The notes under the pieces were generated by a model, which was given only the letters and a program-made list of their open reading frames with translations, searched no databases and was not told the DNA's origin. DNA of 64,000 nt, taken from the NCBI RefSeq assembly GCF_000307105.1, contig NC_018645.1, positions 4,598,001 through 4,662,000 of the forward strand. The letters run 5' to 3'. Made by a program: the position numbers and the translations under genes. The stretch is from Desulfobacula toluolica Tol2 (GTDB lineage Bacteria; Desulfobacterota; Desulfobacteria; Desulfobacterales; Desulfobacteraceae). Shown piece after piece: positions 23,421 through 43,604 of this stretch (position 1 is its first letter; each line of letters begins with the position of its first letter).

Positions 23421-23455
23421 ATTGAAACAATCATAAATTTAAAAGGAGTTTTATC

Positions 23456-24319: not shown

Positions 24320-24375
24320 TTAACGACCATGACATATTTAGCTGCCACAACAAAAAACAAAAGAATCTGTAAGAT
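24320..24375 (+). repeat. Partial double-hairpin element (copy H)
   Basis: TTAACGACCATGACATATTTAG and CTGCCACAACAAA match the left half of copies B and C closely; the second stem is not preserved. It ends about 34 bases before the periplasmic thioredoxin gene. Confidence 0.45.
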
Positions 24376-24408
24376 AATTACAGCGATTTTACCAAAGGAA
24401 AATAAACA

Positions 24409-24825: not shown

Positions 24826-24829
24826 TTTA

Positions 24830-25531: not shown

Positions 25532-25615
25532 ATAACGGCCATGGCAGATTAAACTGCCACAGCAAAGCATGAAAGATATTTAATTCCATCAGGTTAGAAA
25601 TTCTTTCATATAAAT
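25531..25615 (+). repeat. Double-hairpin intergenic element (copy B)
   Basis: TGGCAG / CTGCCA first stem, linker CACAGCAAAGCATGAAAG, second stem ATGAAAGA / TCTTTCAT and terminal ATAAA. It starts on the ccdA stop codon and ends 36 bases before the next gene. The closing pair of stem 2 is A-T here and T-A in copies A, D, E and F (covariation). Confidence 0.75.
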
Positions 25616-25651
25616 TGTTCAACATTCAAAAAACAGGAGGAATACGGCATC

Positions 25652-26176
25652 ATGCTTTTAAAGAAATATACTTTGGAAATATTCAAATCAAAGTGTCAGG
25701 CCGATGCAAAAGGTGTGCATTGCTTTGCACACCTGGAACAGGATGTAAGTGATACTATCCCGTATCTGAACACAGTTCTCGGCGGATTTGAATACCTGTC
25801 CGATCCACCGGCGGTTACATTCAAAGCTCAAGGCAAGCTGATTACGGTCCACGGACGAAAGATTGCAGTTAATGCACTAAAAGATGAAAAAGAAGCAAGA
25901 AAAATTGTTGAGTGGCTGAAAAATGAAATCAACACTGTCTGGGAGACAAAAGATGATATTGAACCATGCTACACAGGAATGCCAAGGCCGGGTATCATTG
26001 AAATCCTGAAGCTGTTGCCAAAAACCAACTGTAGAGAATGCAATGAAGCCACATGCATGGTTTTTGCCACAAAAATCGCCGAAGGTGCCAAAGGGCCTGA
26101 GGACTGTCCCCGGTTGGGAGAAGATGAAAATAAAAAATTAACTGAATATATGAGCCAATTCAATTTAGATCTGTAA
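25652..26176 (+). CDS. [4Fe-4S] protein with PF04060-type domain
   Basis: 174 residues. The C-terminal third holds the four-cysteine motif of the Fe-S domain found in CdhE/AcsC and electron-transport proteins: KTNCRECNEATCMVFATKIAEGAKGPEDCP in two parts (CRECNEATC and GPEDCP). The N-terminal part (1-115) is an unrecognised domain rich in charged residues. It could donate electrons to the reductase encoded next. ATG at 25652 with AGGAGGA. A copy of the repeat element precedes it. Confidence 0.8.
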   Translation: MLLKKYTLEIFKSKCQADAKGVHCFAHLEQDVSDTIPYLNTVLGGFEYLSDPPAVTFKAQGKLITVHGRKIAVNALKDEKEARKIVEWLKNEINTVWETKDDIEPCYTGMPRPGIIEILKLLPKTNCRECNEATCMVFATKIAEGAKGPEDCPRLGEDENKKLTEYMSQFNLDL

Positions 26177-26274
26177 ACAAACGTTGATTATAGATATTTT
26201 CAATACATTTTGATTTTCGCAGTCTTATTAACGATTTGATTTACTGTTTAAACCTTATTAAAGGAGTGTAAAAA

Positions 26275-26280
26275 ATGTAA
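26275..26280 (+). promoter_or_regulatory. Start-stop (ATG-TAA) behind strong SD
   Basis: AAGGAG at 26261-26266 is followed at 8 bases by ATGTAA, 25 bases ahead of the HgdB-like gene, whose own site is the weaker AAGGAAAA. A minimal ORF of this type could stall ribosomes and modulate the gene downstream; equally it may be the degenerate former start. Confidence 0.35.
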
Positions 26281-26304
26281 TCTATCGAAAAAAGGAAAAC
26301 TGTT

Positions 26305-27585
26305 ATGAGCAACGAATATATTTCCATGTGGAAGGATTTGGGATTGAATCTTGAATCTCATGATGCTTTGTTGAGCGTTTTGGGAAATGCCTATACAGAC
26401 ATTTATCTGGCCCAGAAAGACCGCCCCGAAGGAATGGGATACTTTGATTTTGTGATGAGTGAGGTGCATGGCCTCAGGATCAAGGAACTGCTGGATGAAA
26501 AAAAACAGGGCCGTAAAATCATTGGCTCCTATTGTGTATTTGTTCCCGAAGAAATCGTTCTGGCAGCCAATGCAACCCTTGTGGGGCTGTGTTCAGGTGC
26601 GGATTTTGCCATGGAAGAAGTTGAAAAATATTTGCCGAGAAACACCTGCGCCCTGATCAAATCCGCATTCGGGTTCAAGCTGGGACAGGTATGCCCCTAC
26701 CTTGAGGGGGCGGACATGGTTGTGGGCGAAAACACCTGTGACGGAAAGAAAAAAGCCTATGAAACCTTGGGAAGCCTTATTGACAACCTGTATGTGATGG
26801 ATCTGCCCCAGATGAAATCAGTCAATGGACGCGAACTTCTGAGATCTGAATATGATCGATTTAAGACAGCCGTTGAAAAGCTTACAGGGGTCGCCATTAC
26901 CTTTGACTCTTTAAAAACCGCCATTCAAACCGTTAACGCAAAACGATCTGCTCTTCACCGTCTGTATACCTTGAGAAACAATGATCCTGCACCCATTTCA
27001 GGACTGGACGCCCTTCTGGCAAACCAGGTTTCCTTTTATGATAATCCGGTCAGATTCACGCAGTCTCTTCATAAAATCTGCGATGAACTGGAAACAAGGA
27101 TAGAAGAAAAAAAGGGTGTCATGCAGGAAAAGACGCCCCGTATACTATTGTCAGGCTGCCCCATGGCCGTTCCCAATTGGAAACTGCCATGGATTGTTGA
27201 AACATCGGGCGCAGTGATTGTGGGAGAAGAATCATGCGTGGGAGAGCGGGGAACAAGAAACCTGACAGATGATTCCGGTGACACAATTGACGCCCTCATG
27301 GATGCCGTTACCGACAGGTATTTCCAGGTGGACTGCGCGATCTTTACACCCAATTCGGACCGGCTGGAAAATATTATGCAAATGGCCCAGGCCTATAATG
27401 CCGATGGGGTTATCCATTACGGACTCCAATTTTGTCAGCCATATCTGATGGAATCCATACCCGTGGAAAAAATGCTGGAAGACAAAGATATTCCATGCCT
27501 GCGCATTGAAACCGATTATGGAATGGAAGATGCCGGACAACTCAAAACACGGGTGGAAGCATTTATTGAGCTGCTTAAAGGATAA
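26305..27585 (+). CDS. Double-cubane/HgdB-type reductase (1)
   Basis: A 426-residue single-subunit member of the 2-hydroxyacyl-CoA dehydratase D/BcrC family. Members acting alone with an HgdC activator are the double-cubane cluster proteins, which bind an [8Fe-9S] cluster and reduce small molecules with ATP-derived low-potential electrons. Visible cysteines that fit cluster ligation: GSYCVFVPEE, GLCSGAD, PRNTCALIKS, GQVCPYLE, GENTCDGKKK, LSGCPMA, GEESCVGERG, DCAIFTPNS and LQFCQPY. There is no partner C subunit, so a dehydratase of an acyl-CoA is less likely. Activator gene follows 18 bases downstream. Substrate unknown; the ArsR operon context hints at a metalloid or thiol-linked compound. 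Confidence 0.85.
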   Translation: MSNEYISMWKDLGLNLESHDALLSVLGNAYTDIYLAQKDRPEGMGYFDFVMSEVHGLRIKELLDEKKQGRKIIGSYCVFVPEEIVLAANATLVGLCSGADFAMEEVEKYLPRNTCALIKSAFGFKLGQVCPYLEGADMVVGENTCDGKKKAYETLGSLIDNLYVMDLPQMKSVNGRELLRSEYDRFKTAVEKLTGVAITFDSLKTAIQTVNAKRSALHRLYTLRNNDPAPISGLDALLANQVSFYDNPVRFTQSLHKICDELETRIEEKKGVMQEKTPRILLSGCPMAVPNWKLPWIVETSGAVIVGEESCVGERGTRNLTDDSGDTIDALMDAVTDRYFQVDCAIFTPNSDRLENIMQMAQAYNADGVIHYGLQFCQPYLMESIPVEKMLEDKDIPCLRIETDYGMEDAGQLKTRVEAFIELLKG

Positions 27586-27603
27586 ACAAAAGGAAATGGA
27601 TGA

Positions 27604-28359
27604 ATGAAATGTGCAGGAATTGATATCGGTTCGCGTACCATTGAACTGGTTGTCGTGGAAAATGGCCGGATACTTGAAACCCGGAAAACAGATACCGGGT
27701 TTGATCCGATCACTCAAGCAAAAAAAATCCTTGACGGGGTTTGTTACGACGACATCATGGCTACCGGATACGGACGAGGCCTGTTTGAAACCGTTTTTGA
27801 CCATGTAAAAACCGTTACGGAAATCAAGGCACATGCAAGGGGAGTGCAGGCCTTTTTTGATACGGCAACAACCATCCTGGATATCGGCGGCCAGGACAGC
27901 AAGGCGATTGCCCTCAACAAAAAAGGACGTGTGAAAAAGTTTGAAATGAATGACCGCTGTGCCGCAGGAACCGGCAAGTTTCTGGAAATCATGGCCACAA
28001 ATCTCGGGTTTGAGATCGACCGGTTTGGCCCGGCAGCGCTTTGTGCTGAAAATGCCATGAGCATCAACAGCATGTGTACGGTGTTTGCAGAATCAGAAGT
28101 CACATCACTTATTGCAAAGGGAGCAGACAGACAAGAAATTGCCCGGGGCCTTCATCTGAGCGTCGTTAAAAGGGCCTCGGCAATGATCGCCAGAGTTTCT
28201 TCCCAAGGGCCGATTGTTTTTTCAGGTGGTGTGGCGCAAAATCCATGCATACGCGAATTGATATCTGAAAATCTTGACAGGCAAGTTGTCGTCCCGGACA
28301 ATCCCCAGATGATGGGGGCTTTGGGAGCAGCGCTTATACTTGAAAAGGAAAACTTCTGA
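27604..28359 (+). CDS. HgdC-type activator ATPase (1)
   Basis: 251 residues, BcrA/BadF/HgdC family: an ASKHA-fold ATPase homodimer that holds one [4Fe-4S] cluster between subunits and injects electrons into the HgdB-type partner upon ATP hydrolysis. Features: GIDIGSRTIELVVVE phosphate-1 loop, ILDIGGQDSKAI, the two cluster cysteines Cys119 (NDRCAAGTGKF) and Cys158 (NSMCTVFAESEV), and adenosine motif FSGGVAQN. Length is typical (250-270). Cognate to the reductase just upstream by spacing. Last gene of the ArsR-led run; a 556-base gap follows. Confidence 0.92.
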   Translation: MKCAGIDIGSRTIELVVVENGRILETRKTDTGFDPITQAKKILDGVCYDDIMATGYGRGLFETVFDHVKTVTEIKAHARGVQAFFDTATTILDIGGQDSKAIALNKKGRVKKFEMNDRCAAGTGKFLEIMATNLGFEIDRFGPAALCAENAMSINSMCTVFAESEVTSLIAKGADRQEIARGLHLSVVKRASAMIARVSSQGPIVFSGGVAQNPCIRELISENLDRQVVVPDNPQMMGALGAALILEKENF

Positions 28360-28915: not shown

Positions 28916-29683
28916 ATGTTTATCGGAATTGATATCGGTTCAAGAACAGCCAAAGGAATTGTGTTTGATGGAAAATCAATTGTCGGCAGCTCTGTTTGCG
29001 ACACTGGTATTCGTCCCAAGGATTCAGGTGAAAAAATACTCGGGCAACTCCTGAAAACAACCGGATCAAAAGAATCAGACATTAAGAAAATTGTCGGGAC
29101 CGGTTATGGCAGGGTTTCTCTGACCATTGCAGATAAAACAATAACCGAGCTTTCCTGCCATGCAAAGGGCGCTCATTTTATCTGTCCTTCCGCACGCACA
29201 GTTATTGATATCGGCGGACAGGACAGCAAGGTGATCCATGTCAATGAAACCGGCGGTATGAAAGATTTTTCCATGAATGACAAATGTGCTGCAGGTACGG
29301 GCCGTTTTTTTGAAATTGCAGCAAGGGCTCTTGAAATGGATCTGGATTCATTTTGCAATATTGGTCCGGCAGTGGCGAAGTCCTGTCAAATTAATAATAT
29401 GTGCGCGGTATTTGCAGAAACAGAGATCATCTCATTGCTGGCAAAGGAAATCCCTGTGGAAGAAATTGCTTCAGGAATCAACCAGGCCTTTGCAAAACGA
29501 ATTGCAGGTCTGGCCAAAAGGTTGGGTGTCTCCAATGATGTTTTGTTTGTAGGGGGTGTTGCAAAAAATGAAGCTTTGAAAAAAGCGGTTTCCCATGCCC
29601 TTGATATTGAATTTTATCCGTTCACAACAGATCCCCAGCTGATGGGGGCTTTGGGCGCAGCTATTTTTGCCAGTCAACTTTAA
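28916..29683 (+). CDS. HgdC-type activator ATPase (2)
   Basis: 255 residues, same family as the gene at 27604-28359 but clearly diverged. GIDIGSRTAKGIVFDG phosphate loop, VIDIGGQDSKVI, cluster cysteines Cys124 (NDKCAAGTGRF) and Cys163 (NNMCAVFAETEI), and FVGGVAKNEAL. Here the activator precedes its reductase, opposite to the first pair, so the pair did not arise by a simple tandem copy of the operon. ATG at 28916 with AAAGGAG. First gene of the receptor/transporter cluster. Confidence 0.92.
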   Translation: MFIGIDIGSRTAKGIVFDGKSIVGSSVCDTGIRPKDSGEKILGQLLKTTGSKESDIKKIVGTGYGRVSLTIADKTITELSCHAKGAHFICPSARTVIDIGGQDSKVIHVNETGGMKDFSMNDKCAAGTGRFFEIAARALEMDLDSFCNIGPAVAKSCQINNMCAVFAETEIISLLAKEIPVEEIASGINQAFAKRIAGLAKRLGVSNDVLFVGGVAKNEALKKAVSHALDIEFYPFTTDPQLMGALGAAIFASQL

Positions 29684-29700
29684 AAAAAGGAATCAAACCA

Positions 29701-30870
29701 ATGGAATTAAGCGTAACACAAACCATACAGGATCTGAGAACAGACCTGGCCATGGAACTTGAGATGGCAAAAGATGAAGGCAAAAAAGTTGTTGGCTGCC
29801 TATGTTCTTATACCCCCATCGAACTTATACTGGCTGCCGGTGCAATTCCGGTGGGACTGTGCGGTTCCACCCAGACTCCCATCCTTGCTGCAGAAGAAGT
29901 CCTTTCCCCTGACCAGTGTCCAAAGGTGAAAGCAACCTATGGCAGGGCAATTTCCGGAACCTGCCCTCTTTTTCCCCTGGCAGACTGCATTATATCGGAA
30001 ACCACCTGTGACGGCAGGAAAAAAATGTATGAGCTTCTGGCCAGGGAAGTGCCGCTTCTGGTAATGGATCTGCCTCAAAAACCGGATGAACAAGAAGCAT
30101 TGACCCACTGGATCGCTGAAGTTGACAAGGCAAAATCATTTCTTGAACATCAGCTGGATGTTGTTATTACATCAGAGAATTTGAGAGATGCCATCCAACG
30201 GGGTAATCGTAGAAGACATAGCCTTACCAGGCTGTTCATGGCAATGGGATCAACGCCGCCGCCGGTCACAGGCGTTGAGTTTATGGAAATCATGTCCAAG
30301 ATCGGCCATTATGTGGATTATGACAAACATATCAACTTGTTGAGCCAGCTTTTACAAACACTTGAAAAAACAGTGACAGATAAAATATCACAAGTTTCAA
30401 CCAAGCGCCATAGAATTCTCTGGACAGGACTTGGCAACAGCCTGGGCTGCAGCAAGGTGCTTGAACTGGTGGAAGAAAGCGGTGGTGTGGTGGTTTGTCA
30501 GGAAGGGTGCGGTGGCATTACACGGACCGAAGATTTAATTGATGAAACAAAAGATCCCCTCCACGCGATTGCCGAACGGTATTTGCGGGTGACCTGTGCC
30601 TGTATGACCCCAAACGCTCAACGATTTAAAGATCTAAAAAGACTGATTCAAGAATTTAAAATCGATGGGGTGATTGATCTGGCCTGGCAATTTTGCCAGC
30701 CCTTTGAAATCGAATCTTACAGAGTGGGCGAGCTTGTCAAAAAAGAAATGGGACTGCCTTTTTTACATATTGTTACCGATTTTTCCCAATCTGATGTCGA
30801 ACAACTCAGGGTTCGTATTGAGGGGTTTATTGAGCAGATCAGCGAGAATAAAAAATATGCCCGTCATTAA
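29701..30870 (+). CDS. Double-cubane/HgdB-type reductase (2)
   Basis: 389 residues, paralogue of the protein at 26305-27585. Cysteines in matching places: GCLCSYTPIE, GLCGSTQ, PDQCPKVKA, SGTCPLFPLADC, SETTCDGRKK, SLGCSKV, VCQEGCGGITR, TCACMTPNAQ and WQFCQPFEIE. Compared with the first, it lacks the N-terminal 40 residues and has extra cysteine pairs (CLC, CAC). It overlaps the ABC ATPase start by 14 bases, so reductase and importer are translationally linked. That link suggests the imported ligand, or a product from it, is the substrate. Confidence 0.86.
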   Translation: MELSVTQTIQDLRTDLAMELEMAKDEGKKVVGCLCSYTPIELILAAGAIPVGLCGSTQTPILAAEEVLSPDQCPKVKATYGRAISGTCPLFPLADCIISETTCDGRKKMYELLAREVPLLVMDLPQKPDEQEALTHWIAEVDKAKSFLEHQLDVVITSENLRDAIQRGNRRRHSLTRLFMAMGSTPPPVTGVEFMEIMSKIGHYVDYDKHINLLSQLLQTLEKTVTDKISQVSTKRHRILWTGLGNSLGCSKVLELVEESGGVVVCQEGCGGITRTEDLIDETKDPLHAIAERYLRVTCACMTPNAQRFKDLKRLIQEFKIDGVIDLAWQFCQPFEIESYRVGELVKKEMGLPFLHIVTDFSQSDVEQLRVRIEGFIEQISENKKYARH

Positions 30871-31636
30871 AGCAAAACATCTCAGAAAGATCTTTAATGA
30901 AAACCAAACCAATTCCCAGGTTGTTGCAATTGATGATTTCAGCCTTGATATAAAAAAGAATGAATTCGTTGCCATTGTAGGACCCAGCGGCTGCGGCAAA
31001 TCAACCTTTTTACTAATGGTTGCAGGGCTTGAGAAAGCAACATCCGGGACCCTGCTGCTCCATGACAAGCCTGTGGGAAAACCGGAAGCCAGCCGGGCTA
31101 TAGTTTTTCAGGAATATCTGCTGTTTCCCTGGAAAACGGTCAAGTCAAACATTGAATTCGGTCCTTCCTTACAGAAGATACCTAAAAAAGACCTTGAGAA
31201 AATAGGTCGTCATTATATTGATATGGTTGGTTTAAACGGGTTTGAAAATCGATATCCCCATGAGCTTTCCGGGGGAATGAAGCAGCGTGTGGCCATCGCC
31301 CGCGCTCTTGCCAATGAACCTGACATACTTTTAATGGACGAACCTTTCGGCGCACTTGATTCGCTGACACGGGAAAGCCTTCAAATGGAACTTTTAACTA
31401 TCTGGCAGCAAACCACATGTACAGTTCTTTTTGTTACCCACAGCATCACCGAAGCCGTCTATCTGGCGGACAGAGTGGTGGTCATGAGCAAACGGCCTGG
31501 AAGAATAAAAGATATCATTCCAATTAATCTGGAACGCCCGCGTTACAGGGAAATGTACGTTTCTAACGAATTCAGGGAATATGAAAACATGCTGAAAGAA
31601 ATTGTTTGGAAAGAAGTTGGAGACACGGTTTTATGA
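30857..31636 (+). CDS. NitT/TauT-type ABC importer ATPase
   Basis: 259 residues from the ATG at 30857 ([13 protein letters not shown]). Walker [11 protein letters not shown]-loop [10 protein letters not shown], signature [15 protein letters not shown], Walker [18 protein letters not shown] and H-loop [16 protein letters not shown], the pattern of the nitrate/sulfonate/taurine ATPases (SsuB/TauB). It overlaps the reductase gene upstream (14 bases) and the permease downstream (ATGA). Substrate class cannot be fixed by the ATPase. Confidence 0.92.
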
Positions 31637-32406
31637 AACACATAAATATCAAGAAACTCATCTCCCCTATTATCCTTCTTCTCTTATGGGAATTGATTGC
31701 CAGAATCGGGTGGATACCGAACTGGTTTTTACCGGTGCCGTCAACGGTTTTACAGGTGCTGTGGGAAATGATTTTATCCGGTGAGGTTCCAAAACATACC
31801 GGCATCAGTCTTTTAAGGGGTTTTACCGGGTATGGGTTTGCCGCAGTATTTGGTATTGGTCTGGGGCTGTTGATTGCCTGGTCAAAAATTATTGAAAATA
31901 TTTTTGACCCGCTCATTGAGTTGATTCGCCCCCTTTCAACATTTGCATTAATCCCGATTTTTTTTCTCTGGTTCGGCATCGGCAATACCTCAAAAATAAT
32001 AATTATTTTCAAAGCCTGTTTTTTCCCCATCGTGATCAACACAATATCGGGTATTAAAGGTGTGGACAGCAAACTGATTCAGGCTGCCCGCTCCCTTGGA
32101 GCTACGGAACGGCAATTGTGGACAAAGGTATTCATTCCTTCGGCTCTTCCCATGATTATCACGGGCATGAGAATATCCACGGCTATTTCAATCATGGCCC
32201 TGGTGGGTGTAGAAATGCTGGCCGGTGATTCAGGTATAGGATTTTTGGTGATTGATGCCCAACGTACTTTTGACACTGAGCGCGTTTTTGCCGGCATTAT
32301 CGTTTTATCAATTCTTGGGTTTTCTCTGGATCGAATTGCAAGGATGATCCAGTATAGAATCCTTTCCTGGCATACACAGACGTCTTTGGAGGGAGGACGG
32401 ACATGA
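31633..32406 (+). CDS. NitT/TauT-type ABC importer permease
   Basis: About 257 residues with six transmembrane segments; the EAA loop is in INTISGIKGVDSKLIQAARSLGATERQLWTKVFIPSALP (read as SLGATERQLWTKVFIPSALP), the contact to the ATPase. LVGVEMLAGDSGIGFLVIDAQ near the C-terminus is typical of TauC/SsuC. I use the ATG at 31633, which overlaps the ATPase stop; an upstream in-frame ATG at 31606 is within the ATPase gene. The stop overlaps the receptor gene start. Confidence 0.92.
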   Translation: MKHINIKKLISPIILLLLWELIARIGWIPNWFLPVPSTVLQVLWEMILSGEVPKHTGISLLRGFTGYGFAAVFGIGLGLLIAWSKIIENIFDPLIELIRPLSTFALIPIFFLWFGIGNTSKIIIIFKACFFPIVINTISGIKGVDSKLIQAARSLGATERQLWTKVFIPSALPMIITGMRISTAISIMALVGVEMLAGDSGIGFLVIDAQRTFDTERVFAGIIVLSILGFSLDRIARMIQYRILSWHTQTSLEGGRT

Positions 32407-34568
32407 CCGGGTTACAAAAAACTATTTTAAACATAAAAAACATAAAAGGAAAACAGATGATAAAGATTGTTAGATTGATTTTCCCGTTGCTGCTGATGGT
32501 ATGCCTTTTATGGCCACCGATAGCCGGCTCAGAACCGATGAATCCAGACAAAGAAAATTGTCCGGATTGCCAAAAGACCGAGCCCATTAACATAGGCGAT
32601 GTGCTTGTCACCGCATTTCACGGTGGTGCCGTTACAATTACGCCCACGAAAACAGTTATAGACATCGAAAAATTTAACAAAAGCGGAACTGTGGACCGTG
32701 TGGAAGATATTTTGATGCATTTGACAGGTATTGATGTATTGCGAGGGACGGCAGGCGCTGATCCACAGCAGATGATTATGATGCGTGGATTTGATGACAG
32801 CCGATTTACCATTGCCATTGACGGCAGAACAATTACTGCTCCAACGGCAGGCGCTGACACCTATGTTGACTGGTCAAGCCTGACCACAGGTGATATGAAA
32901 AAAATTGAAATCATCCGAGGTGCAGCATCAGTCCAATATGAAAATTCCCAGGGCGGTATCATCAATATCATTACACAAAAGGGAAAGAAACAATCCACCC
33001 TTGTTCCCCAACTGACAGTCTCTTCTGAATATGCCAGGTACAATACATGGGTACACCGGACGACAGCAGACGGCGGTATTGGCGATTTAACCTATTTTTT
33101 AAACTATGGATACAAGGAGTCGGACGGCTATTTAAGAAACAATGATTATAACGGGAACGATTATTCAGCCAGGTTTGCTTATACCTTTGCATCTGATGGC
33201 ATCCTGACGCTTTCCGCAAAAGGATCGGACCTTACTATGGGATATACAGTGGCCAATGATCCTGACGGCATATATGCCGACTATGACCCTTCCTACCCGG
33301 TTGTACCTGAAGATGCAGATACCCTCCGACGTTACAGGGACATGTCCTTTGCCGGAGGGGATAATTACAAAGATAAAGAATCTCTGCATAAAGACATCAG
33401 CTTTGAACAACCATTTGGTAAAAACACCTTAAAAGTCCAATTATATGAAACAACAGGCGAGGAAAGCAGTTATTATTACACCCTTGTCAAAAACAACGCA
33501 TATGACCCGACCATAGACCCACCTGAAAATCAATATAAACTGACCCAAAAATCTTCCGTTGGTGATAGCCGCAAGGAGAGACATATCGGCGGAAGACTCC
33601 AGTATCATATGGAACTGTGGGATAACCACTCCCTGGTCATGGGGTATGACCAGAGACGGATGGAGGTTGAATCCAATAAGGATATCTGGCGGATGCAGGC
33701 AGGTTACCTTGAAGACAACTGGCAAATCACTTCTAAACTATCTGCGCTTCTCGGTATGCGGTATGCCCATATTCGTGAGAATACCTATCCCTATGCAGAT
33801 CCCGGTACAATTGAAAAATACAGCCACAAACTGAAAACACAGCTTTGGTTACCCAAATCCACACTTACCTATCAGTTTACAAAGGACACCTCAGCCTTTA
33901 TTTCTGTCAACAAGGACTACCACGTCCCTGGCTGTTGAGATCGGTCTGCTTGGGCCAGTTTTGGCTCTGATGAAAAAGGAAATGAAATTGAAACAGAAAC
34001 CAGTATGCACTACGACACAGGGCTTTTCCATAAATTAAACGAGAAGATCGATACCCGGTTGTCAATATATTACATCGCCATCGACAATTATATTGTAGCA
34101 AATTCAGGTGATTCCCACCATGCATCAAGCAGTTACGGCTACAATGTCGATAAAATTGCTTTTTACGGTTTTGAAGCGGAATTCAACGCGGCACTGTCTA
34201 AAAAGGTGACACTTTTCGGTAACTACACTTTTAGACAAATCAATTATGACCAGGAAGATATCCTGGCAGATGCCATCCTGCTGGAACTATCTCCAGAGCA
34301 TAAAGCCAATCTGAGTATCCGCTACAAAATGTTTGAGAACACGCGTTTGACATCGGATATCAGGTATGTCGGGGAGCGTAAAACTGAAGGCAATGTGTAC
34401 AACCTGGATGATTTTATCACGGTGGATGTGGGAATTGAACAAACCCTGTTCAAAAAAATTGCCCTGCGCGCCTATATTAGTAACCTTTTTGGAGAAGAGT
34501 ACCAGGAAGTATATGGCTATCCATTGCCTGAGCAGACCTTTGGTATTCGTGTAAAAGTTACATTTTAA
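32403..34568 (+). CDS. TonB-dependent receptor with in-frame UGA (Cys-Sec)
   Basis: Outer-membrane gated-porin receptor, 721 residues if the UGA at 33936-33938 is read. Signal peptide around residues 20-43, a CPDC pair at Cys53/56 of the mature N-terminus, a plug domain (VEDILMHLTGIDV, MRGFDDSRFTIAIDGR, KKIEIIRGAASVQYEN, GGIINIIT) and a beta barrel ending in the aromatic IRVKVTF. The UGA is residue 512, directly after Cys511 (DYHVPGC-UGA-DRSAWASFG); the same frame stays open for another 209 codons with barrel-like sequence to the natural C-terminus. Immediately 3' a hairpin (33952-33967) meets the bacterial SECIS pattern. Start ATG at 32403 overlaps the permease stop and has GGAGG; ATG 32457 is an alternative. 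A nonsense mutation is the rival explanation. Confidence 0.8.
33936..33967 (+). promoter_or_regulatory. UGA codon and candidate bSECIS (receptor)
   Basis: UGA, 13 bases, then GGGCCA / TGGCTC (six pairs, one G-U) closing a GUUU loop. The loop starts 19 bases after the UGA with G as its first base, inside the 16-37 range of the bacterial SECIS model. Confidence 0.65.
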
Positions 34569-34586
34569 CAATACACAGGAGTAAAA

Positions 34587-35564
34587 ATGAAGTTGTTCTT
34601 CAGATCAAGTGTAGCCACATTCGTTCTGTTATTCATATTTTTACCGTCCCAGTTGCTTGCGGATTCGCAAGCAACTGAAAAAAGGCCGACGGTCAAATTA
34701 ACCTATTGGAAAAGCATTGACGACCTTCCCTTGTATGTGGCCAAGGAAAAAGGCTATTTTGAAGAATCCGGTGTCAATGTAGAACTTCTGCACATTAAAG
34801 GAGAACAAAATGCGCTTGCCGCAGCATTGAGAGGAGATGTGAATGGCGGATATATTTCGCTTGCTTCACTGATCAAGCTGGCTGAAAAAAAAGTACCGAT
34901 AAAAGTGGTAATATGGATGGGACATGCCCATAAAGGAACCAAATGCGGTATACACGTAGGTACACAGACAACGTATCAGCAATTGACTGACCTTAAAGGT
35001 ATCCGCCTGGCAACCGGTGGCAGCATCAACACAAAGACCATGCTGACCCATGCTCTTTACAAGGGAAATCTAGGATTAAAAGATATCCGAACATTATGGG
35101 GAGGCACACCGGATAATCCCATGCAATATGAAGCAGCTCTCAGGTCAGGCGGTGTTGACGCATTTATTGTTTGAGACCCCCTTGCAGCCATGCTGGAATT
35201 GCATGGAGCAAGTAGGATATTAGCTTCTTTTCATGATATTGTACCCAATTGGATTTTTGCAGGCTTGTATTTTTCAGACACCTTTTTAAAAAAGAATAAA
35301 GAAAGTGTAAAAAAAGTGCTGCAGGCTATTGAAAAAGCATTTGTCTTTATCAAAGAAAATGAAATTCAGGCAAGAGAGTATCTGCCAAAATATACCGGAA
35401 TCAAAAGGGATATCTGCATGATAGCGGCATTAAGGGAATATGGTGCAGCAAAAGAACCCATAGAACGCATCAACTTTCAACGAAACTTGATGATTAAATA
35501 CGGGTATATTAAAACCAATACCCCAATAGAACACATGATCGATTATCAATATTTATCTCAATAG
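34587..35564 (+). CDS. NMT1/TauA-like substrate-binding protein with in-frame UGA
   Basis: Periplasmic binding protein of the ABC importer, 325 residues when UGA 35172-35174 is read through. Signal peptide 1-25 (LPSQLLA/DS), then the family start VKLTYWKSIDDLPLYVAKEKGYFEESGVNVELL, GDVNGGYISLAS, and GIRLATGGSINTKTML. Residue 196 is the UGA (GGVDAFIV-UGA-DPLAAMLEL); related proteins usually have Trp or another large residue before the acidic-Pro pair, in the ligand cleft. The frame stays open for 129 more codons of typical C-lobe sequence. A 13-pair hairpin follows the UGA. A single Cys120 (KGTKCGIHV) in the N-lobe could pair with Sec or co-ligate a metal. TGG to TGA mutation is the alternative. 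Confidence 0.8.
35172..35212 (+). promoter_or_regulatory. UGA codon and candidate bSECIS (binding protein)
   Basis: UGA, six bases, then CTTGC-AG-CCATGC, loop UGGAAUU, GCATGG-A-GCAAG: eleven pairs with one small internal loop. The apical loop begins 19 bases after the UGA and has G as its second base, a textbook bacterial SECIS geometry. Confidence 0.75.
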
Positions 35565-35575
35565 GGGATGATCTT

Positions 35576-37381
35576 ATGAAAAAGTATCTGTTTCTAATGC
35601 TGCTGGGTTTATTGTTTTCCAGCCCAGCCTCCTGCTTTGCAGGTGATGCTACCTCCCTTTTTTCAGATGGGTTCAAAAGAATCCCCAAACAAAGCACTTC
35701 CAAATTACTTTTTATACAACTATGTATGATTATTATATGTGTTTTTTTTGCTGTACCTCTGCGGGCAGAACAGAGGATCGAAAAAGATCTGGATGAAGAC
35801 GGAATAGTGGATCAGGTGCTTATCTATAATGATAAGGGTACCATTATAAAGGTAGAGACAGATCAGGATCAGGATGGTTTTGCCGAACGACTTCTAATTT
35901 ATACCGACGGCAACTTGGCCCGCATTGAACGGGATACGGACAAGAATCAAAAAATGGACAGCCTGGATTATATTGAAAATAACCGGCGACTGCGGCAAGA
36001 AAGGTTCGATCCTGAAGGCCGTTTGTTTCAAGTAGTCATATTTGACGAGGATGAACGTATTTTAAAAATGAAAAAAGACACCACCGGAAACCAGCAGTTT
36101 GATACACACTATCAGTTTTCAAACGGCAATCTGGTATCATCCACCAGAGATACGGACAACAATAAACAGATCAATGTCTGGACAAACTATAAGAATCAGC
36201 TGCCTGTTCAGCAACAAGAAGATAAAAATGAAGACGGGATTATGGACCGGATATTGACCTTTGATGACCAGGGTCAGATACAAAAGATGCTAAAAGATCC
36301 CTTTGCAAAAGGTCAGTTCCGGACCATTGATTTTTTTGAAAATGGTCGGATCAAGACCCGGCATAAGGATAAGAACCAAGACTTAAAGATTGATGAGATT
36401 ACCCTATTTGACAACGACAACCCCATTGAACAGCAAAAAGACAGAAATTTTGACGGCACCTGGGATTATTTTGCTGATTTTGATGCAAAAGGGGAACTGC
36501 TTAAAACCAGAGAAGACACCTCTGGCAATGGAAAAGTAGACCGGATACGATTTTTCAGGGCATCAGAGCCCTATAAGGTACAGACAGATACAAATGGGGA
36601 TGGTTTTTTTGAAACCGTATCATTGTTGAAAAATCAAAAAATTGTAAAAAATATGATTGATAAAAATCAGGATGGGAAGACCGATGTAACAGTCTTTTTC
36701 AATAAAGATGAGGAAAAAGAAAAACTGATCAGTGATACAAATCTGGATGGTAAAAAAGATTTATGGCAGTTTTATGCCAATAATAATTTAAGCCGCCTTC
36801 TAAAAGATGAGAATCATGATGACCGGGTAGACCTGAAAGTAACCTATAAAAATGGAATCAAAGCCATATTGGAAAAGGATTCGGACTACGACAGTGTTTT
36901 TGAAATAACACAAGTTTACACAGATCCTGCCTGGACACTTATCGTTTCACACGATTTCAATGCAGATGGGAAAATGGATATTCAATCCTTTTATACTGGC
37001 AAGGTCTTGCGAAAAAAGCAAATGGATGAAGACCTGGACGGCCTTTTCGATATTGTGGAATATTATTCACAACAGGCCGCCCTTGAAAAAATAGAAGAAA
37101 AAAAAGAAGGCAAACCATGGATGATCTGGTTTTATGGTGCAAATGAAGAGTTGATTCGCGGTGAAGAAGATAAAAACCAGGATGGCAAAAGTGATGTCTG
37201 GTATCTGTATGACAAGGGGGCACTTGTTGAGGTGCAAGAAGATACCAACCATGATAGTAAGGCCGATTTGTGGGAATACTATGATGAAACACAGACTGTG
37301 GTCAAACGCCGGAAGGATCTGGATTTTGACGGCATGTCTGATTTTACGGATCAAATAAATCACGCTGAAACAGACAGCTGA
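35576..37381 (+). CDS. Exported DxDxDG-repeat protein with tandem signal peptides
   Basis: 601 residues. Two secretion signals occur in series: MKKYLFLMLLGLLFSSPASCFAGD (1-24) and, after a 20-residue basic spacer, LLFIQLCMIIICVFFAVPLRAEQ (about 44-66). The rest is about twenty degenerate repeats of 28-30 residues, each with a calcium-loop-like DxDxDGxxD (DLDEDGIVD, DQDQDGFAE, DKNEDGIMD, DTNGDGFFE, DKNQDGKTD, DTNLDGKKD, DEDLDGLFD, DTNHDSKAD) followed by two short strands. Likely a calcium-binding, elongated periplasmic or outer-membrane protein. ATG at 35576 has AGGGGAT; an internal ATG before the second signal has no ribosome site. Located between binding protein and exbB, 11 bases after the former, so probably part of the uptake system; role unknown. 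Confidence 0.75.
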   Translation: MKKYLFLMLLGLLFSSPASCFAGDATSLFSDGFKRIPKQSTSKLLFIQLCMIIICVFFAVPLRAEQRIEKDLDEDGIVDQVLIYNDKGTIIKVETDQDQDGFAERLLIYTDGNLARIERDTDKNQKMDSLDYIENNRRLRQERFDPEGRLFQVVIFDEDERILKMKKDTTGNQQFDTHYQFSNGNLVSSTRDTDNNKQINVWTNYKNQLPVQQQEDKNEDGIMDRILTFDDQGQIQKMLKDPFAKGQFRTIDFFENGRIKTRHKDKNQDLKIDEITLFDNDNPIEQQKDRNFDGTWDYFADFDAKGELLKTREDTSGNGKVDRIRFFRASEPYKVQTDTNGDGFFETVSLLKNQKIVKNMIDKNQDGKTDVTVFFNKDEEKEKLISDTNLDGKKDLWQFYANNNLSRLLKDENHDDRVDLKVTYKNGIKAILEKDSDYDSVFEITQVYTDPAWTLIVSHDFNADGKMDIQSFYTGKVLRKKQMDEDLDGLFDIVEYYSQQAALEKIEEKKEGKPWMIWFYGANEELIRGEEDKNQDGKSDVWYLYDKGALVEVQEDTNHDSKADLWEYYDETQTVVKRRKDLDFDGMSDFTDQINHAETDS

Positions 37382-37397
37382 AGAACTGGAGGAAGAG

Positions 37398-38009
37398 ATG
37401 CTCGATTTTTTATCAAAAGGTGGAATGCTGGTTATACCAATCATATTTTGTTCTGTCATTGTCCTGGCAATTTTTTTTGAACGGATCATTCGATATGCAG
37501 TCAATCGCAATCGGGGGAAAAACATTGAACATCAGGTGACTCAATTGATGAAACTGGGAGATACAGACCAAGCGCTGGCCGTCTCAAAAAAAAGCCGGTC
37601 GCCCATGGGCCGGGTGTTGGAAAAAGCCATTGATGCAAGAGATATGGAAAGCGACGTACTGGAATCGGTTATTGCAAATGCCACAGAAAATGAGGTCAGG
37701 GGACTGTCTTCATATCTTCAAGCCCTGGCAACCATTGGTAATATAGCACCGCTGCTCGGGCTTTTGGGTACGATTATCGGCATGATAAAGGCTTTTATGG
37801 TCATCCAGCAGATGGGGGGCAAGGTCAATGCCGCCGTGCTGGCCGGAGGGATATGGGAAGCCATGCTTACCACTGCGTTAGGATTAGCCGTGGCACTGCC
37901 CACCATGGTGGCGCATTCATATTTAATTGCCAAGGTGGACATGTATGAAGCACGGCTTCAAAACGGTTCCATCCTTTTTTTAAAAGCAATTTCAAAAAAG
38001 GTGGCGTAA
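37398..38009 (+). CDS. exbB: ExbB-type proton channel subunit
   Basis: 203 residues, MotA/TolQ/ExbB family: N-terminal membrane helix (GGMLVIPIIFCSVIVLAIFFERI), cytoplasmic loop, and two further helices in SSYLQALATIGNIAPLLGLLGTIIGMIKAF and AGGIWEAMLTTALGLAVALPTM. With ExbD it harvests the proton motive force to energise TonB. ATG at 37398 after GGAGGAAGAG. It is dedicated by position to the receptor two genes upstream. Confidence 0.93.
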   Translation: MLDFLSKGGMLVIPIIFCSVIVLAIFFERIIRYAVNRNRGKNIEHQVTQLMKLGDTDQALAVSKKSRSPMGRVLEKAIDARDMESDVLESVIANATENEVRGLSSYLQALATIGNIAPLLGLLGTIIGMIKAFMVIQQMGGKVNAAVLAGGIWEAMLTTALGLAVALPTMVAHSYLIAKVDMYEARLQNGSILFLKAISKKVA

Positions 38010-38010
38010 G

Positions 38011-38418
38011 ATGCCGGTGTTTAAAAAAAAAAGAGACCGATACCAGATTCAGCCGCCCATGACCTCATTGATTGATATCGTGTTTTTATTGCTCATCTAT
38101 TTTATGTTGACCACCAATTTTATTGTGGAAGAGGGTATTAATATCAAACTTCCCAATGCCAAAGCCTCTGCCCCCCAAGTAAAACAGGAAATCACCATTT
38201 ATATAGATAAAAGAGGAACCATCTACATGATGGAAAAAGAAATTCCTTTAGATATGCTCTATGCACAGATCAAAGAGATGATTGGCGGGGCGACAGATCG
38301 CCTGGTTGTGGTAAAAGCTGACAAGACAATTGTCTTAAATAAAGCGGTCCGGGTAATGGATATCGCAAAAGCGGCCGGTGCATCCCGGCTGTGCCTGGCT
38401 ACTGAAAAAGGATTATAA
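38011..38418 (+). CDS. exbD: ExbD-type proton channel subunit
   Basis: 135 residues: basic N-terminus, one transmembrane helix with the essential aspartate in PPMTSLIDIVFLLLIYFMLTTNFIVEEG, then a periplasmic domain (ITIYIDKRGTIYMMEKEIPLDML, VVVKADKTIVLNKAVRVMDIAKAAG). ATG one base after the exbB stop. Confidence 0.93.
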   Translation: MPVFKKKRDRYQIQPPMTSLIDIVFLLLIYFMLTTNFIVEEGINIKLPNAKASAPQVKQEITIYIDKRGTIYMMEKEIPLDMLYAQIKEMIGGATDRLVVVKADKTIVLNKAVRVMDIAKAAGASRLCLATEKGL

Positions 38419-38421
38419 ATC

Positions 38422-39114
38422 GTGACAGCACAAGAACAAAATACATCCAATTGGCTGCTGCGCGGATTTATATGTTTGTCAATGGTGATCCATTTTTTTA
38501 TTTTTCTCCACATGGCAGGTATTTATAAAAACAATGCCATGTCATATATTGAATTCACCATGCACGAGTTTTCCAAACCCAATATTCGACATATTCCAAC
38601 CCCGCGGATGCGACAGAAAAATCCGGATATTTCCAAAGTTCAACAAATTAAAACCAGAAAATTGATCATCCCCCAATTTAAAATGGAAAAGGTCCAAACT
38701 CACCAGATGGACAATAGTTATGAAAAAATAAGCATGCCGGGCTTTACAGACACGATAAAAATCAGTGATATGACTATTAACAGCATTGCAGATATCAATG
38801 CCTTTCACGAACCGGTTAAATTCACCACTGCAAAAGAATATTTTGAGATGCTGAACCTGCGTATAAACAGTGCAAAAGAATATCCGGAATATGCGAAATC
38901 CCGCCATTTAGAAGGCCGTGTTACAGTGGAATTTGTGTTGCAAAAGGACGGGGTACTGAACAATATTAAAGTTGCAAAAAGTTCCCGCCACGAGCGCCTG
39001 GATAATGCCGCCATTGAGGCTGTAAAGCGTGCATCACCCTTTCCCAGACCCCCTTCATTTTTATTCAAGACACCAATAACTCTTCAGGTTAATATTATGT
39101 TTGAAATGGCATAA
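38422..39114 (+). CDS. tonB: TonB energy transducer
   Basis: 230 residues from GTG 38422. N-terminal signal anchor (RGFICLSMVIHFFIFLHMAGIY with the His in the helix typical of TonB), a linker with little proline compared with E. coli TonB, and the C-terminal TonB fold: YPEYAKSRHLEGRVTVEFVLQKDGVLNNIKVAKSS and LDNAAIEAVKRASPFPRPP. It spans the periplasm and pulls on the receptor plug. Last gene of the cluster; starts 3 bases after exbD. Confidence 0.92.
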   Translation: MTAQEQNTSNWLLRGFICLSMVIHFFIFLHMAGIYKNNAMSYIEFTMHEFSKPNIRHIPTPRMRQKNPDISKVQQIKTRKLIIPQFKMEKVQTHQMDNSYEKISMPGFTDTIKISDMTINSIADINAFHEPVKFTTAKEYFEMLNLRINSAKEYPEYAKSRHLEGRVTVEFVLQKDGVLNNIKVAKSSRHERLDNAAIEAVKRASPFPRPPSFLFKTPITLQVNIMFEMA

Positions 39115-40771: not shown

Positions 40772-41057
40772 ATTCTTCCCCTGATCAAAAAAAATCAGCA
40801 TCCTTTTAAATTTTTAAGCGATTATTCCAGGTTGCTGTGTCATAATAGATGCAAAAAACTTCACACATACGCCATTTACCACAACTTGCTCTCTGTGACA
40901 AATACTGCTTTATATGCGGACTGTAAAAAAATATGAGTTTGCTCTTGTAAATTCCATTGTTTCTTACGATACTTCCAGGCATGAAAAACAACATATATAA
41001 TATTGACCATGCTTTGAAATTTAACGGTTTGACTGTTTTGAGTTGCCTGTATTTGCC

Positions 41058-42182
41058 ATGAAACCCAATGTGAAAATTATTTTATTTTTTCTGCTGACGG
41101 CTTTTGTTGCAGTGCTTGGAATTCTTCACACCCTTACACCGGGGCACATGATTTTTTTTCATGATACCTACCGGCGGCTGAGCTATTTTCCCATTACCAT
41201 TGGTGCTATACTTTTTGGAATCCGGGGAGGTATTGTTCTGGCTGTCCTGTCCTGCATGGCATTTGTCCCTCATCTTTACATGTTCTGGGCAAGGGGACCG
41301 CAAGCTTATTACAGCGAATTATCGGAAATTGTCTTTTACCTTGCTGCCGGGGGGGTGGTCGGGCTTATTTCAAGCCGGGAAAACAAATTAAGAGAAAAAT
41401 ATAAAACGCTTTCGGAAAAACTGGCTGGATCATATAAACGCCTTCATGAACAGGCATTCCAGCTTGTGAAAGCCGAACAGCAATTGGGTCAAAGCCAAAA
41501 ACTTTCCATGCTTGGGCATGTATCGGCATCCCTTGCCCATGAAATCAAAAATCCCCTGGCATCCATCAAAGGGGCAGCTGAAATCCTGGCAGATGAAGTC
41601 CCCCAAGGCCATCCCAAACATGAATTTATCGAAATCATGCGCCTGGAAATTGCAAGGCTTAATAATTCAGTGGAAGATGTCCTGACATATTGCCGGGGCA
41701 GTCAACATCAAGACAGAGGCAAAAAACAAACCGTTGAAAAGATTGTCAACCGTGTGGTTGCGTTGCTTGAAGCAAAAATCAAGGAAAAATTCATAGGCGT
41801 TGATATCCGTCCGAAACCCAGCATTCGTCCATTTTTGACAAACGAAGCTGCCATGATTCAAGTGTTGATGAACATTATTATTAATGCAATTGATGCTGTT
41901 GAAAAAAACGGCAGAATCCTCGTTGACATTGGCGACTATGAACAAGGTTGCCTCATAAAAATTTGCGACGACGGCCCAGGCATAGATGAAGCCATGGTTA
42001 CCAAAGTGTTTGAGTCCTTTGTCTCCTTCAAGGAAGGCGGGACAGGCCTTGGACTTTCCATTTCAAAACGGATAGTTGAAAGCCTGGGTGGAAAAATCAG
42101 TGTTGAAAAATCAGAACTTGGCGGTGCAGGGTTTTTAATATTTTTACCTGAAAAAACATTTTTAAATAACGGCCATGGCTGA
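41058..42182 (+). CDS. Membrane sensor histidine kinase (ZraS/AtoS-like)
   Basis: About 374 residues: four to five transmembrane helices in the first 110 residues (ILFFLLTAFVAVLGILHTL, FPITIGAILFGIRGGIVLAVLSCMAFV, IVFYLAAGGVVGLISS) with no large periplasmic domain, a coiled coil, then HisKA with VSASLAHEIKNPLASIKGAAE and HATPase_c (NIIINAIDAVE, DDGPGI, GGTGLGLSISKRI). Its small extracytoplasmic surface suggests sensing within or near the membrane. ATG at 41058; a TTG at 41043 is possible; neither has a good ribosome site. Paired with the sigma-54 activator 81 bases downstream. Confidence 0.88.
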   Translation: MKPNVKIILFFLLTAFVAVLGILHTLTPGHMIFFHDTYRRLSYFPITIGAILFGIRGGIVLAVLSCMAFVPHLYMFWARGPQAYYSELSEIVFYLAAGGVVGLISSRENKLREKYKTLSEKLAGSYKRLHEQAFQLVKAEQQLGQSQKLSMLGHVSASLAHEIKNPLASIKGAAEILADEVPQGHPKHEFIEIMRLEIARLNNSVEDVLTYCRGSQHQDRGKKQTVEKIVNRVVALLEAKIKEKFIGVDIRPKPSIRPFLTNEAAMIQVLMNIIINAIDAVEKNGRILVDIGDYEQGCLIKICDDGPGIDEAMVTKVFESFVSFKEGGTGLGLSISKRIVESLGGKISVEKSELGGAGFLIFLPEKTFLNNGHG

Positions 42183-42250
42183 TTGACCTGCCACAACAAA
42201 AAAATGAAAGATATCTGATTCCAAGAGGTTAGAAATTCTTTCACATAAAT
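42165..42250 (+). repeat. Double-hairpin intergenic element (copy C)
   Basis: Close to copy B: AATAACGGCCATGGC start, CTGCCACAACAAA linker, TGAAAGA / TCTTTCA second stem, ATAAAT end. It begins within the last codons of the kinase and ends 13 bases before the regulator gene. Confidence 0.7.
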
Positions 42251-42263
42251 GAAAGTATAAAAC

Positions 42264-43604
42264 ATGTCTGATCTAATATTATTGATTGATGATGATCAAA
42301 GCTTGAGAAGGGTTACCGAATACAATCTGGGCGCAAAAGGGTTTATAGTCGTGACTGCTGCATCAGGCAAAGAGGGACTTGAATCATTTGAGACAAACAC
42401 ACCTGATCTTGTGGTGACAGATGTTAAATTAGGGGACATGAGCGGGCTTGATATTCTTGCAACCATAAAAGAAAAAGCCCCTGATATACCCGTGATTATC
42501 ATGACGGCATTCGGGTCCATTGAGATGGCTGTCCAGGCAATGCACAAAGGCGCGTTTAATTTTATCACCAAACCCTTTGAGCGGGAAACCCTGATTCAAT
42601 CTTGCAAAAAGGCATTAGAGCTTAGCAAATTACAGTCCCGAACAAAACTTTTGTCTAATGAAATAAACCGGCTGACCGGCACACAAGGCATTGTGTCTGC
42701 AAGTTCCGTCATGAAAGAATTGTTGGAAACCGCGTCCAGGGCTGCAAACAGTGAAGCAACAATTTTGATATCCGGAGAGTCGGGCACAGGCAAAGAGGTG
42801 CTGGCAAGGCTGATACACCAGAACAGCCCCAAAAGAAACGGTCCCATGGTTGCTGTCAATTGCGCGGCCATTCCTGCCGGACTGATAGAAAGCGAGTTGT
42901 TCGGCCATGTAAAAGGGTCTTTTACCGGAGCCATAAAAGACAGAAAAGGACATTTTCAAACAGCTGCCGGCGGAACCCTTTTTCTGGATGAAATCGGCGA
43001 ACTGACAACGGATATACAGGTCAAGCTGTTGCGGGCAATCCAGGAAAAAGAGGTGCAGGCCGTGGGATCGGAACGGGTGAAGCGTGTTGATATCAGAATT
43101 ATTGCCGCCACCAATCTTGATCTTAAACAACAAATTACCCAAGGCAAATTCAGGGAAGATTTATATTACAGGTTGAGCGTCATTCCGCTGTTTATTCCGC
43201 CATTAAGGGAGCGAACCGAAGACATTCCAGCCCTGGTAAAACATTTTTTAAAAAAATTTGATGCCCCACGGGATGTTGGGTTCTCTTCACAGGCCCTGGC
43301 AATATTAAAAACCTATCACTGGCCAGGAAACATAAGGGAAATGCAAAATATTATTGAAAGATGTATTATCTTACGCAAACAAAGCGTGATTGAGCCTGAA
43401 GACCTTCAATTGCTCGTTAACAAACCCTCATCTTCAGCACTTACACCGGTTATTCCTGATGAAGGAATTGCACTTGAGGATATTGAAAAAAGCTATATTT
43501 TAAAAGCCCTTGAAAAGGCAAACCAGAACCGTTCAAAAGCTGCCAGATTGTTAAAAATACCTCGACACGTTCTGTTATACCGGCTGGAAAAATATGGCTT
43601 GTAA
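42264..43604 (+). CDS. NtrC-type sigma-54 response regulator
   Basis: 446 residues: receiver (LILLIDDDQS, phospho-acceptor Asp53 in VVTDVKLGDMSG, MTAFG, TKPF), AAA+ domain with Walker A GESGTGKE, the sigma-54 contact loop GSFTGA (usual GAFTGA, Ala to Ser), Walker B GGTLFLDEIGEL, arginine-finger region REDLYYRLSVIPL, and a Fis-type helix-turn-helix (ALEKANQNRSKAARLLKIPRHVLLYRLEKYGL, seen as NRSKAARLLKIPRHVLLYRL). It should drive sigma-54 promoters in answer to the kinase upstream. The next operon starts with a TGGCAC-type element, the likely target. Confidence 0.92.
   Translation: MSDLILLIDDDQSLRRVTEYNLGAKGFIVVTAASGKEGLESFETNTPDLVVTDVKLGDMSGLDILATIKEKAPDIPVIIMTAFGSIEMAVQAMHKGAFNFITKPFERETLIQSCKKALELSKLQSRTKLLSNEINRLTGTQGIVSASSVMKELLETASRAANSEATILISGESGTGKEVLARLIHQNSPKRNGPMVAVNCAAIPAGLIESELFGHVKGSFTGAIKDRKGHFQTAAGGTLFLDEIGELTTDIQVKLLRAIQEKEVQAVGSERVKRVDIRIIAATNLDLKQQITQGKFREDLYYRLSVIPLFIPPLRERTEDIPALVKHFLKKFDAPRDVGFSSQALAILKTYHWPGNIREMQNIIERCIILRKQSVIEPEDLQLLVNKPSSSALTPVIPDEGIALEDIEKSYILKALEKANQNRSKAARLLKIPRHVLLYRLEKYGL

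Follow-up and report, generated by a model that had tools for sequence, protein, structure and literature searches.

In Desulfobacula toluolica Tol2, a block of ten genes on the forward strand is best explained as a selenocysteine (Sec)-dependent pathway that imports and then reduces a compound, most likely a scarce selenium compound, an explanation that we hold at even chances. The block was studied within a stretch of 64,000 bases (positions 4,598,001 to 4,662,000 of NC_018645.1), which is called the window here and provides the coordinates unless another locus is named; the host genome is a single contig of 5,197,905 bases. The block spans positions 28916-39114 and encodes, in this order, an activator, a double-cubane-cluster reductase, the ATPase and the permease of an ATP-binding cassette (ABC) importer, a TonB-dependent receptor, a periplasmic binding protein, a DxDxDG-repeat protein, ExbB, ExbD and TonB. 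Very probably these genes form one import-and-reduce unit with Sec in its binding sites, while selenium as the cargo is close to a coin toss. Direct observation covers which genes are present and to which families they belong, how far the set is conserved, and the conservation of its TGA codons. A first-pass annotation, a model's reading of the letters made without database searches, had proposed such a unit and left its ligand open.

The ten-gene block and its in-frame TGA codons

The coordinates confirm what the first-pass annotation had described: ten genes on one strand in the stated order, some overlapping and the others separated by gaps of under 20 bases. Families were assigned with Pfam and NCBIfam profiles and their curated cut-offs. 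The block opens with act2 (28916-29683), an ATPase activator of the BcrAD_BadFG or acyl-CoA dehydratase activase type (PF01869, 197.9 bits; TIGR00241, 255.6 bits, cut-off 125.4), and dcc2 (29701-30870), a double-cubane-cluster reductase (NF040772, 459.6 bits, cut-off 350) that phmmer aligns to the solved proteins 7yyl and 6eno with E-values of 1.3e-77 and 2e-77. The ATPase gene abcA (30857-31636, start approximate; PF00005) and the permease gene abcP (31633-32406 from an ATG, with an alternative TTG start at 31606; PF00528) have SaoA and SaoP as their nearest named families, both below cut-off (267.1 bits vs 360 and 170.8 bits vs 295). They are followed by the receptor (32403-34568), a predicted selenoprotein with the CU motif VPGCUD (NF049946 TonB_dep_CU, 1113.5 bits, cut-off 700), and by the binding protein (34587-35564), a predicted selenoprotein of the SsuA/TauA fold with a UDP motif (PF09084/PF13379; TIGR01728 at 104.1 bits stays below its cut-off of 163.5). 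The DxDxDG-repeat exported protein (35576-37381) has no family above cut-off, the nearest being Lsa25.6 at 42.9 bits vs 150. Codons 1 to about 35 of its open reading frame (35576-35690) resemble the start of a small exported gene of about 150 residues that follows the binding protein in three relatives (L080, L003 and L004; genomes and loci carry our G and L numbers) and look like a remnant of such a gene, which places the probable true start at about 35726. ExbB (37398-38009; PF01618, 105.9 bits), ExbD (38011-38418; PF02472, 104.4 bits) and TonB (38422-39114; PF03544, 68.8 bits) complete the block. Genes overlap at the reductase/ATPase, ATPase/permease and permease/receptor (4 bases) junctions, and the other gaps measure, in gene order, 17, 18, 11, 16, 1 and 3 bases.

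The receptor and the binding protein each contain one in-frame TGA, at 33936-33938 and 35172-35174, and Sec is likely at both codons. The genome carries selA and one selD that itself has an in-frame TGA, which makes Sec synthesis likely. The TGA of the binding protein occupies the same codon in all 17 loci collected (see below) and is never TGG; the UDP motif is likewise kept in 17 of 17, with coding conserved on both sides, and the GCUD motif is kept in all 11 receptors above cut-off. Together with the receptor score, these codons go beyond a chance occurrence and agree with the first-pass annotation, which had taken both proteins for Sec proteins. Members of the binding-protein group score 405-570 bits and all have the TGA (a G132 fragment at 125.5 bits aside); the next relatives score 108-112 bits and none has it. 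Ordinary calling of open reading frames splits the window gene at the TGA into 195 and 124 residues, and no NCBIfam cut-off was passed in the four members of the group that were scanned. A stem-loop resembling a selenocysteine insertion sequence (SECIS) lies at 35184-35209, 10-35 bases past the last base of the binding-protein Sec codon. Over 16 sequences 97.2% of its alignment cells are paired, vs at most 46.5% when the stem is slid along the alignment, and in the window 8 of 200 shuffles of the 60-base stretch fold as well.

Several observations count against Sec and favor the alternative that the TGA codons either are stops, with each gene split in two, or encode Trp. At neither Sec site was a Cys form found, and the genome searches at E<=1e-30 (389, 395 and 85 genomes) gave four matches without TGA. 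The position of the binding-protein Sec is occupied by Trp in three of the nearest Sec-less relatives aligned (L092, L094 and L095), which also lack the Cys and the two His residues common to the 16 aligned members, and by Pro or Thr in four others (two G143 binding proteins and two from other reductase-linked transporters). Covariation in the SECIS-like stem does not exceed that of shuffles (16 sequences), and protein conservation alone may keep the stem; the receptor stem is no more stable than shuffles, 145 of 200 being as stable. Even so, stops or Trp are very improbable in view of the selA and selD genes, the conserved coding on both sides of the TGA, a codon that never turns to TGG, and the curation of the receptor family as a CU type. 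A Cys also adjoins the TGA residue in the receptor, and an invariant Cys lies in the putative pocket of the binding protein.

The place of the Sec residues suggests a role in binding. A profile alignment to Escherichia coli TauA puts Cys120 of the binding protein at Glu106 and Sec196 at Trp176, with a numbering offset of 21 that fits 8 of the 11 residues named in the available part of PMC6906117 (Ser109, Asp84 and Asn55 do not match). According to that part of the paper, Glu106 is a hinge residue whose Ala mutant does not bind taurine, and Glu106 and Trp176 both contact the morpholino group of bound MES. As Cys120 and Sec196 align to these ligand contacts, both should face the ligand, close together in the pocket, if the homology holds. 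His115 and His123 are invariant as well. The AF2 model of the binding protein has a pLDDT of 89.6, with Foldseek likeness to SsuA, TauA and PqqT. For the receptor the model is moderate (pLDDT 74.7, pTM 0.77); it predicts the CU motif in a long extracellular loop, loop 7 when strands are counted back from the C-terminus, between predicted strands 496-506 and 533-546, and Foldseek lists PqqU and siderophore receptors. These placements suggest that the outer-membrane receptor and the periplasmic carrier both use Sec where the ligand binds. This fits the earlier proposal that a ligand is caught by Sec residues, imported and reduced, of which the ligand and the enzyme activity are putative.

Conservation of the unit in relatives

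The binding protein and the receptor were searched for separately. The binding-protein profile matched 10 of the 389 genomes of the order, 5 of the 395 genomes of a phylum sample with strong scores, and 4 of the 85 genomes in the order to which G132 belongs, including one new genome. Three matches came from a scan of named contigs, and one of these was taken as the contig of G738, with which it agrees in length and gene layout. Distinct genomes or contigs with the Sec binding protein thus number 17, with L002 and L080 taken as one contig of 11231 bases and counted once. L090, a second G132 match, is a fragment of about 90 residues and was not counted as a locus, and the four further matches of the phylum sample at 108-112 bits (G108, G143, G299 and G369), which have no TGA, were left out of the membership.

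The association of the reductase pair, the ABC importer and the Sec binding protein is conserved in relatives. The first-pass annotation had named the lack of a conserved association between reductase and transporter in other genomes as the result that would speak against it; the outcome was in its favor, with a dcc2-type reductase inside the same block at 13 of the 17 loci. Two others (L037 and L084) are cut off by a contig end. The remaining two, L087 and L088, weigh against a fixed unit: they have the Sec importer, with ATPase, permease and binding protein, and no reductase in the 20 kb fetched. An act2-type activator is present in the block at 10 of the 17 loci, and two of these ten copies are incomplete (cut by the contig in L080, in two pieces in L038). 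A lipoprotein-like protein of about 196 residues follows the Sec binding protein in L087 (10573-11163) and L088 (10711-11304), the two loci where the reductase is absent, and the L087 copy has no Pfam match.

A CU receptor above cut-off was found in 11 of the 15 searched genomes that have the Sec binding protein, with one TGA each. The receptor lies on the contig of the binding protein in all 11, again in favor of the association. It is absent above cut-off from the genomes G764, G738, G686 and G563, and no CU receptor stands beside the block in the named contigs L003 and L004, where the contig was the whole of the search and L004 ends soon after the block. The DxDxDG and exbB genes accompany the receptor in 7 of the 11. 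Within the phylum sample, the five genomes with the receptor are the same five that have the Sec binding protein, a coincidence with a chance of 1.3e-11 if the two were independent and kinship is ignored (two of the five share a genus). The window binding protein is 82% identical to that of L080 and 63-69% identical to those of L081, L003 and L004, four loci without an adjoining receptor; its identity to the remaining loci, which comprise every locus with a receptor as well as L087 and L088 without one, is 35-47%. The window receptor is 71% identical to that of L084. The simplest reading of these identities, and of the small-gene-like start of the DxDxDG frame, is that a block without a receptor later gained the receptor gene and the TonB genes.

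The genome also holds a second Sec TonB receptor, of the PCPU motif type, at 8831-10954 of L043 (G000:C1:3135500-3155400; 1210.3 bits, cut-off 800), next to a Peripla_BP_2 protein and a methyltransferase. At L041 a PCPU-type receptor adjoins tetrapyrrole methylase and DUF4198 genes. NapG/NapH-like genes stand beside the binding protein in L086 (5730-9560) and L089 (8211-9859, copies recognized by clustering), and those of L086 also adjoin a molybdopterin oxidoreductase gene. A plasmid search with the binding protein gave 184 records, none of which reached 60% identity; among the ten records listed, one is unannotated and the others are ABC binding proteins of the NrtA/SsuA type or of a general kind.

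Selenium and other candidate cargoes

Gene neighbors in relatives point to selenium, and those in the window are of a metal(loid) type. In L081, a locus from the same genus as the window, the order is LysR_Sec_metab (267.6 bits, cut-off 250), reductase, ATPase, permease, binding protein, a small exported protein, YedE (486.3 bits, cut-off 200) and Se_S_carrier (PF11823). L091 has YedE (493.0 bits) and Se_S_carrier divergent to the reductase, after an OprD-like porin, and L003 has a divergent YedF (184.0 bits, cut-off 110) that adjoins the activator. Selenium genes therefore flank 3 of the 17 loci, where 0.14-0.30 would be expected by chance (P 0.0004-0.004, with assumed gene densities and with loci treated as independent). 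Reductases also stand next to selenium genes elsewhere: in G707 a dcc1 relative and its activator precede selD and yedF, and in G730 (L130) a Sec-less reductase-ABC block is divergent to selD and yedF. The G730 block resembles one in the Tol2 genome itself, where the third double-cubane reductase (L155, 8235-12227, within G000:C1:4714000-4732000) forms one block with a Sec-less SsuA-like binding protein, a permease and an ATPase.

E. coli has a protein above the NF040772 cut-off, which we take to be the product of yjiM, with YjiM and YjiL as the reductase/activator pair; its ynj operon is presumably an ABC-type operon. In the available portion of PMC7888660, an expression module of ynjXYZABCD, yedEF, yjiLM and ynjE is reported, for which a relation to molybdenum and selenium usage was proposed. 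Likened by this description, the module resembles the block in that its reductase pair is expressed together with the ynj operon and with putative selenium genes; it differs in that the portion mentions neither Sec in the transport proteins nor any TonB receptor. Lin et al. 2015 (PMC5322559) give a one-organism STRING table in which the selenium LysR has a 2-hydroxyglutaryl-CoA dehydratase subunit as its first partner and the partners of YedE, YedF and DUF3343 include a CoA-substrate-specific activase; the accompanying text, as far as it was available, does not discuss either as a candidate. A preprint on mlp gene clusters (PMC10418091) describes a dicubane protein as provisionally tied to the metabolism of selenium, and one of its figure legends names this protein alongside Sao genes, in the part available. 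Its type 1 clusters with DCCP, DCCPR, Sao and sel genes share the provisional link of the reductase pair to selenium; they differ in having corrinoid methyltransferases at their core, and TonB is absent from that part of the text.

A number of points weigh against selenium as the cargo. At 14 of the 17 loci, including the whole 64 kb of the window, LysR_Sec_metab, YedE, YedF and Se_S_carrier gave no match (tblastn, E<=1e-4) in the stretches covered, several of which stop short at a contig end. The selD and yedE genes of this genome lie far from the block. Such genes could also gather around a selenium-consuming system to supply it, with no bearing on its cargo. The Slackia proteins of the STRING table are putative double-cubane proteins. 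A general linkage of selD and the reductase was considered and set aside: among the 50 family genomes with a double-cubane gene, only 3 have selD no more than 10 kb away from it (judged by eye, with many short contigs). Finally, the ligand and the enzyme activity are putative assignments from sequence and gene context.

The immediate neighbors in the window add a further point on this side. An upstream island (21824-28359) encodes an ArsR-type regulator, a SaoE/ArsP-like permease (PF03773; SaoE at 140.9 bits, below the cut-off of 325), an MTH895/ArsE thioredoxin, a DGC protein, an exported thioredoxin, a CcdA-like protein, an Fe-S protein, dcc1 and act1. These genes bear on the idea of a Sao-like system for soft metals or organometals, in which Cys/Sec pairs would bind an organomercury or organoarsenic compound, or an Hg, As or Cu ion, which after import would be detoxified through reduction by the double-cubane enzyme. 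The best NCBIfam matches of the ATPase and the permease are SaoA and SaoP, with SaoX second-best for the binding protein, and the Cys-Sec pairs and invariant His residues would suit soft ligands. Every Sao score, however, is below cut-off. As a clue to the ligand the island was rejected, since the stretches examined of the 16 other loci contain no match to arsR, the permease, the ArsE-like gene or the DGC gene at E<=1e-4, and in a clustering of 19 loci no further gene family is common to more than 4. Active TonB import of a poison for its detoxification would also be unusual. Taken together, a soft-metal cargo appears unlikely.

Two further cargoes were weighed. The SsuA/TauA fold and family of the binding protein would suit organosulfur assimilation, with a sulfonate or other sulfur compound imported by the transporter and reductively cleaved. 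A precedent exists in Rhodobacter, where isethionate use needs the SsuABC transporter and the nitrogenase-like Isr reductase, as stated in the accessible part of PMC11423573. Sec in two binding sites would nevertheless be costly for a sulfur source, and the metabolic link, where seen, is to selenium genes. The named hosts are related to sulfate reducers, for which sulfur is not scarce, and we regard this cargo as rather improbable. Uptake of a metal chelate or redox cofactor, in which the receptor and the binding protein take up the complex and the reductase releases the metal, has a parallel in PqqU and PqqT, which take up PQQ with the same kinds of protein. The Foldseek matches of the receptor (PqqU, siderophore receptors) and of the binding protein (PqqT) point the same way, as do the Peripla_BP_2 proteins, methyltransferases and tetrapyrrole methylase beside other Sec receptors. 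These fold matches, at low identities of 18% (PqqU) and 17% (PqqT), are general to the families, and no chelator biosynthesis gene was recognized in the block, which makes a chelate or cofactor quite improbable.

The last two genes of the island, dcc1 (26305-27585; NF040772, 473.4 bits, cut-off 350) and act1 (27604-28359; TIGR00241, 216.2 bits), form a second reductase/activator pair directly upstream of the block (26305-28359), and dcc1 is a possible helper. The pair was rejected as a fixed component: dcc1 stands with the system in one relative (L083), and its relatives occur in 36 of 86 family genomes vs 4 with the Sec binding protein (the sample searched for the latter may not hold all 86), so that it is not specific. 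A scan for promoters and terminators was uninformative, with 37 promoter-like sites vs 37.2 in shuffles and 19 terminator-like sites vs 17.5. Downstream, a histidine kinase and an NtrC-type sigma-54 activator (41043-43604) possibly regulate the block, and a cobalamin riboswitch lies on the reverse strand at 52257-52436 (86.2 bits).

Relation to known systems and proposed pathway

The Sao system (SaoA, SaoP, SaoX, SaoB and SaoE) was reportedly described by Haft and Gwadz in 2023. The name stands for selenocysteine-assisted organometallic genes, according to a figure legend in the available part of PMC10418091. The window shares with it a NitT/TauT-type ABC importer with a Sec binding protein and the SaoE-like permease upstream. 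The UxP motif of SaoX, as described in the part of PMC13188914 at hand, resembles the UDP motif of the window protein, a likeness by motif description. Besides the sub-threshold scores given above, to which SaoX adds 63.2 bits vs 300, the window differs in its Sec TonB receptor, its own ExbB-ExbD-TonB set and the DxDxDG protein. The ATPase, permease and binding protein are distant Sao relatives.

The receptor is a clear member of the NF049946 CU family, whose sister types are PCPU, PUIUD and FCYXU. A review lists the FCYXU type as a Sec TonB receptor (PMC13188914, same part), and a Sec TonB receptor in Desulfosarcina sp. BuS5 is reported in the deep-Sep paper (PMC12013277, in the portion available). 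No paper on the function or gene context of NF049946 CU receptors was found in the literature search. Both window reductases belong to the double-cubane family NF040772, and the strong match of dcc2 to 6eno and 7yyl would predict an [Fe8S9] cluster and ATP-dependent reduction; the reductase and activator of the block differ from those proteins in being tied to a dedicated Sec importer and an outer-membrane receptor. The folds of receptor and binding protein are those of PqqU/PqqT and TauABC/SsuABC, whereas at the Sec and Cys places the pocket residues are other than those of TauA.

The first-pass annotation knew of no described system with this composition. Its parts are less novel than that suggested, being already known as an NCBIfam receptor family (NF049946), a reductase family (NF040772) and Sao-like transport. 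The combination as a whole was not found in the literature searched; two papers outside that literature, by Haft and Gwadz (2023) and by Haft and Tolstoy (2025), could overlap with it. There is a real chance that it constitutes a dedicated selenium acquisition pathway.

Such a pathway would run from the outer membrane to the cytoplasm. The ligand would dock at the extracellular loop of the TonB receptor, held by the Cys-Sec pair, and ExbB-ExbD-TonB would energize its passage through the outer membrane, as is standard for these families. In the periplasm the SsuA/TauA-like protein would take over the ligand in a pocket lined by Cys120 and Sec196, as suggested by the TauA alignment, and the NitT/TauT-type importer would move it into the cytoplasm, again in the standard manner. 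There the activator and ATP may feed low-potential electrons to the double-cubane reductase, which would split or reduce the compound and free selenide for SelD. The Sec residues, the ligand, the chemistry and the direction of flow in this scheme are what we infer from the genes. In its full form, with selenium chemistry at the Sec-Cys pairs capturing a selenium compound and an ATP-driven reductase releasing selenide from it, the scheme is tentative and falls somewhat short of even chances.

If true, the pathway would amount to a nutrient loop that feeds itself, and the orphan double-cubane reductases would gain a physiological role. To our knowledge, the uptake of trace selenium by bacteria is largely an open question, with YedE still a putative transporter, and we know of no natural substrate of the double-cubane reductases. 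The cluster joins these two questions and would make both of them testable, with the binding protein for ligand screening and the reductase for assay.

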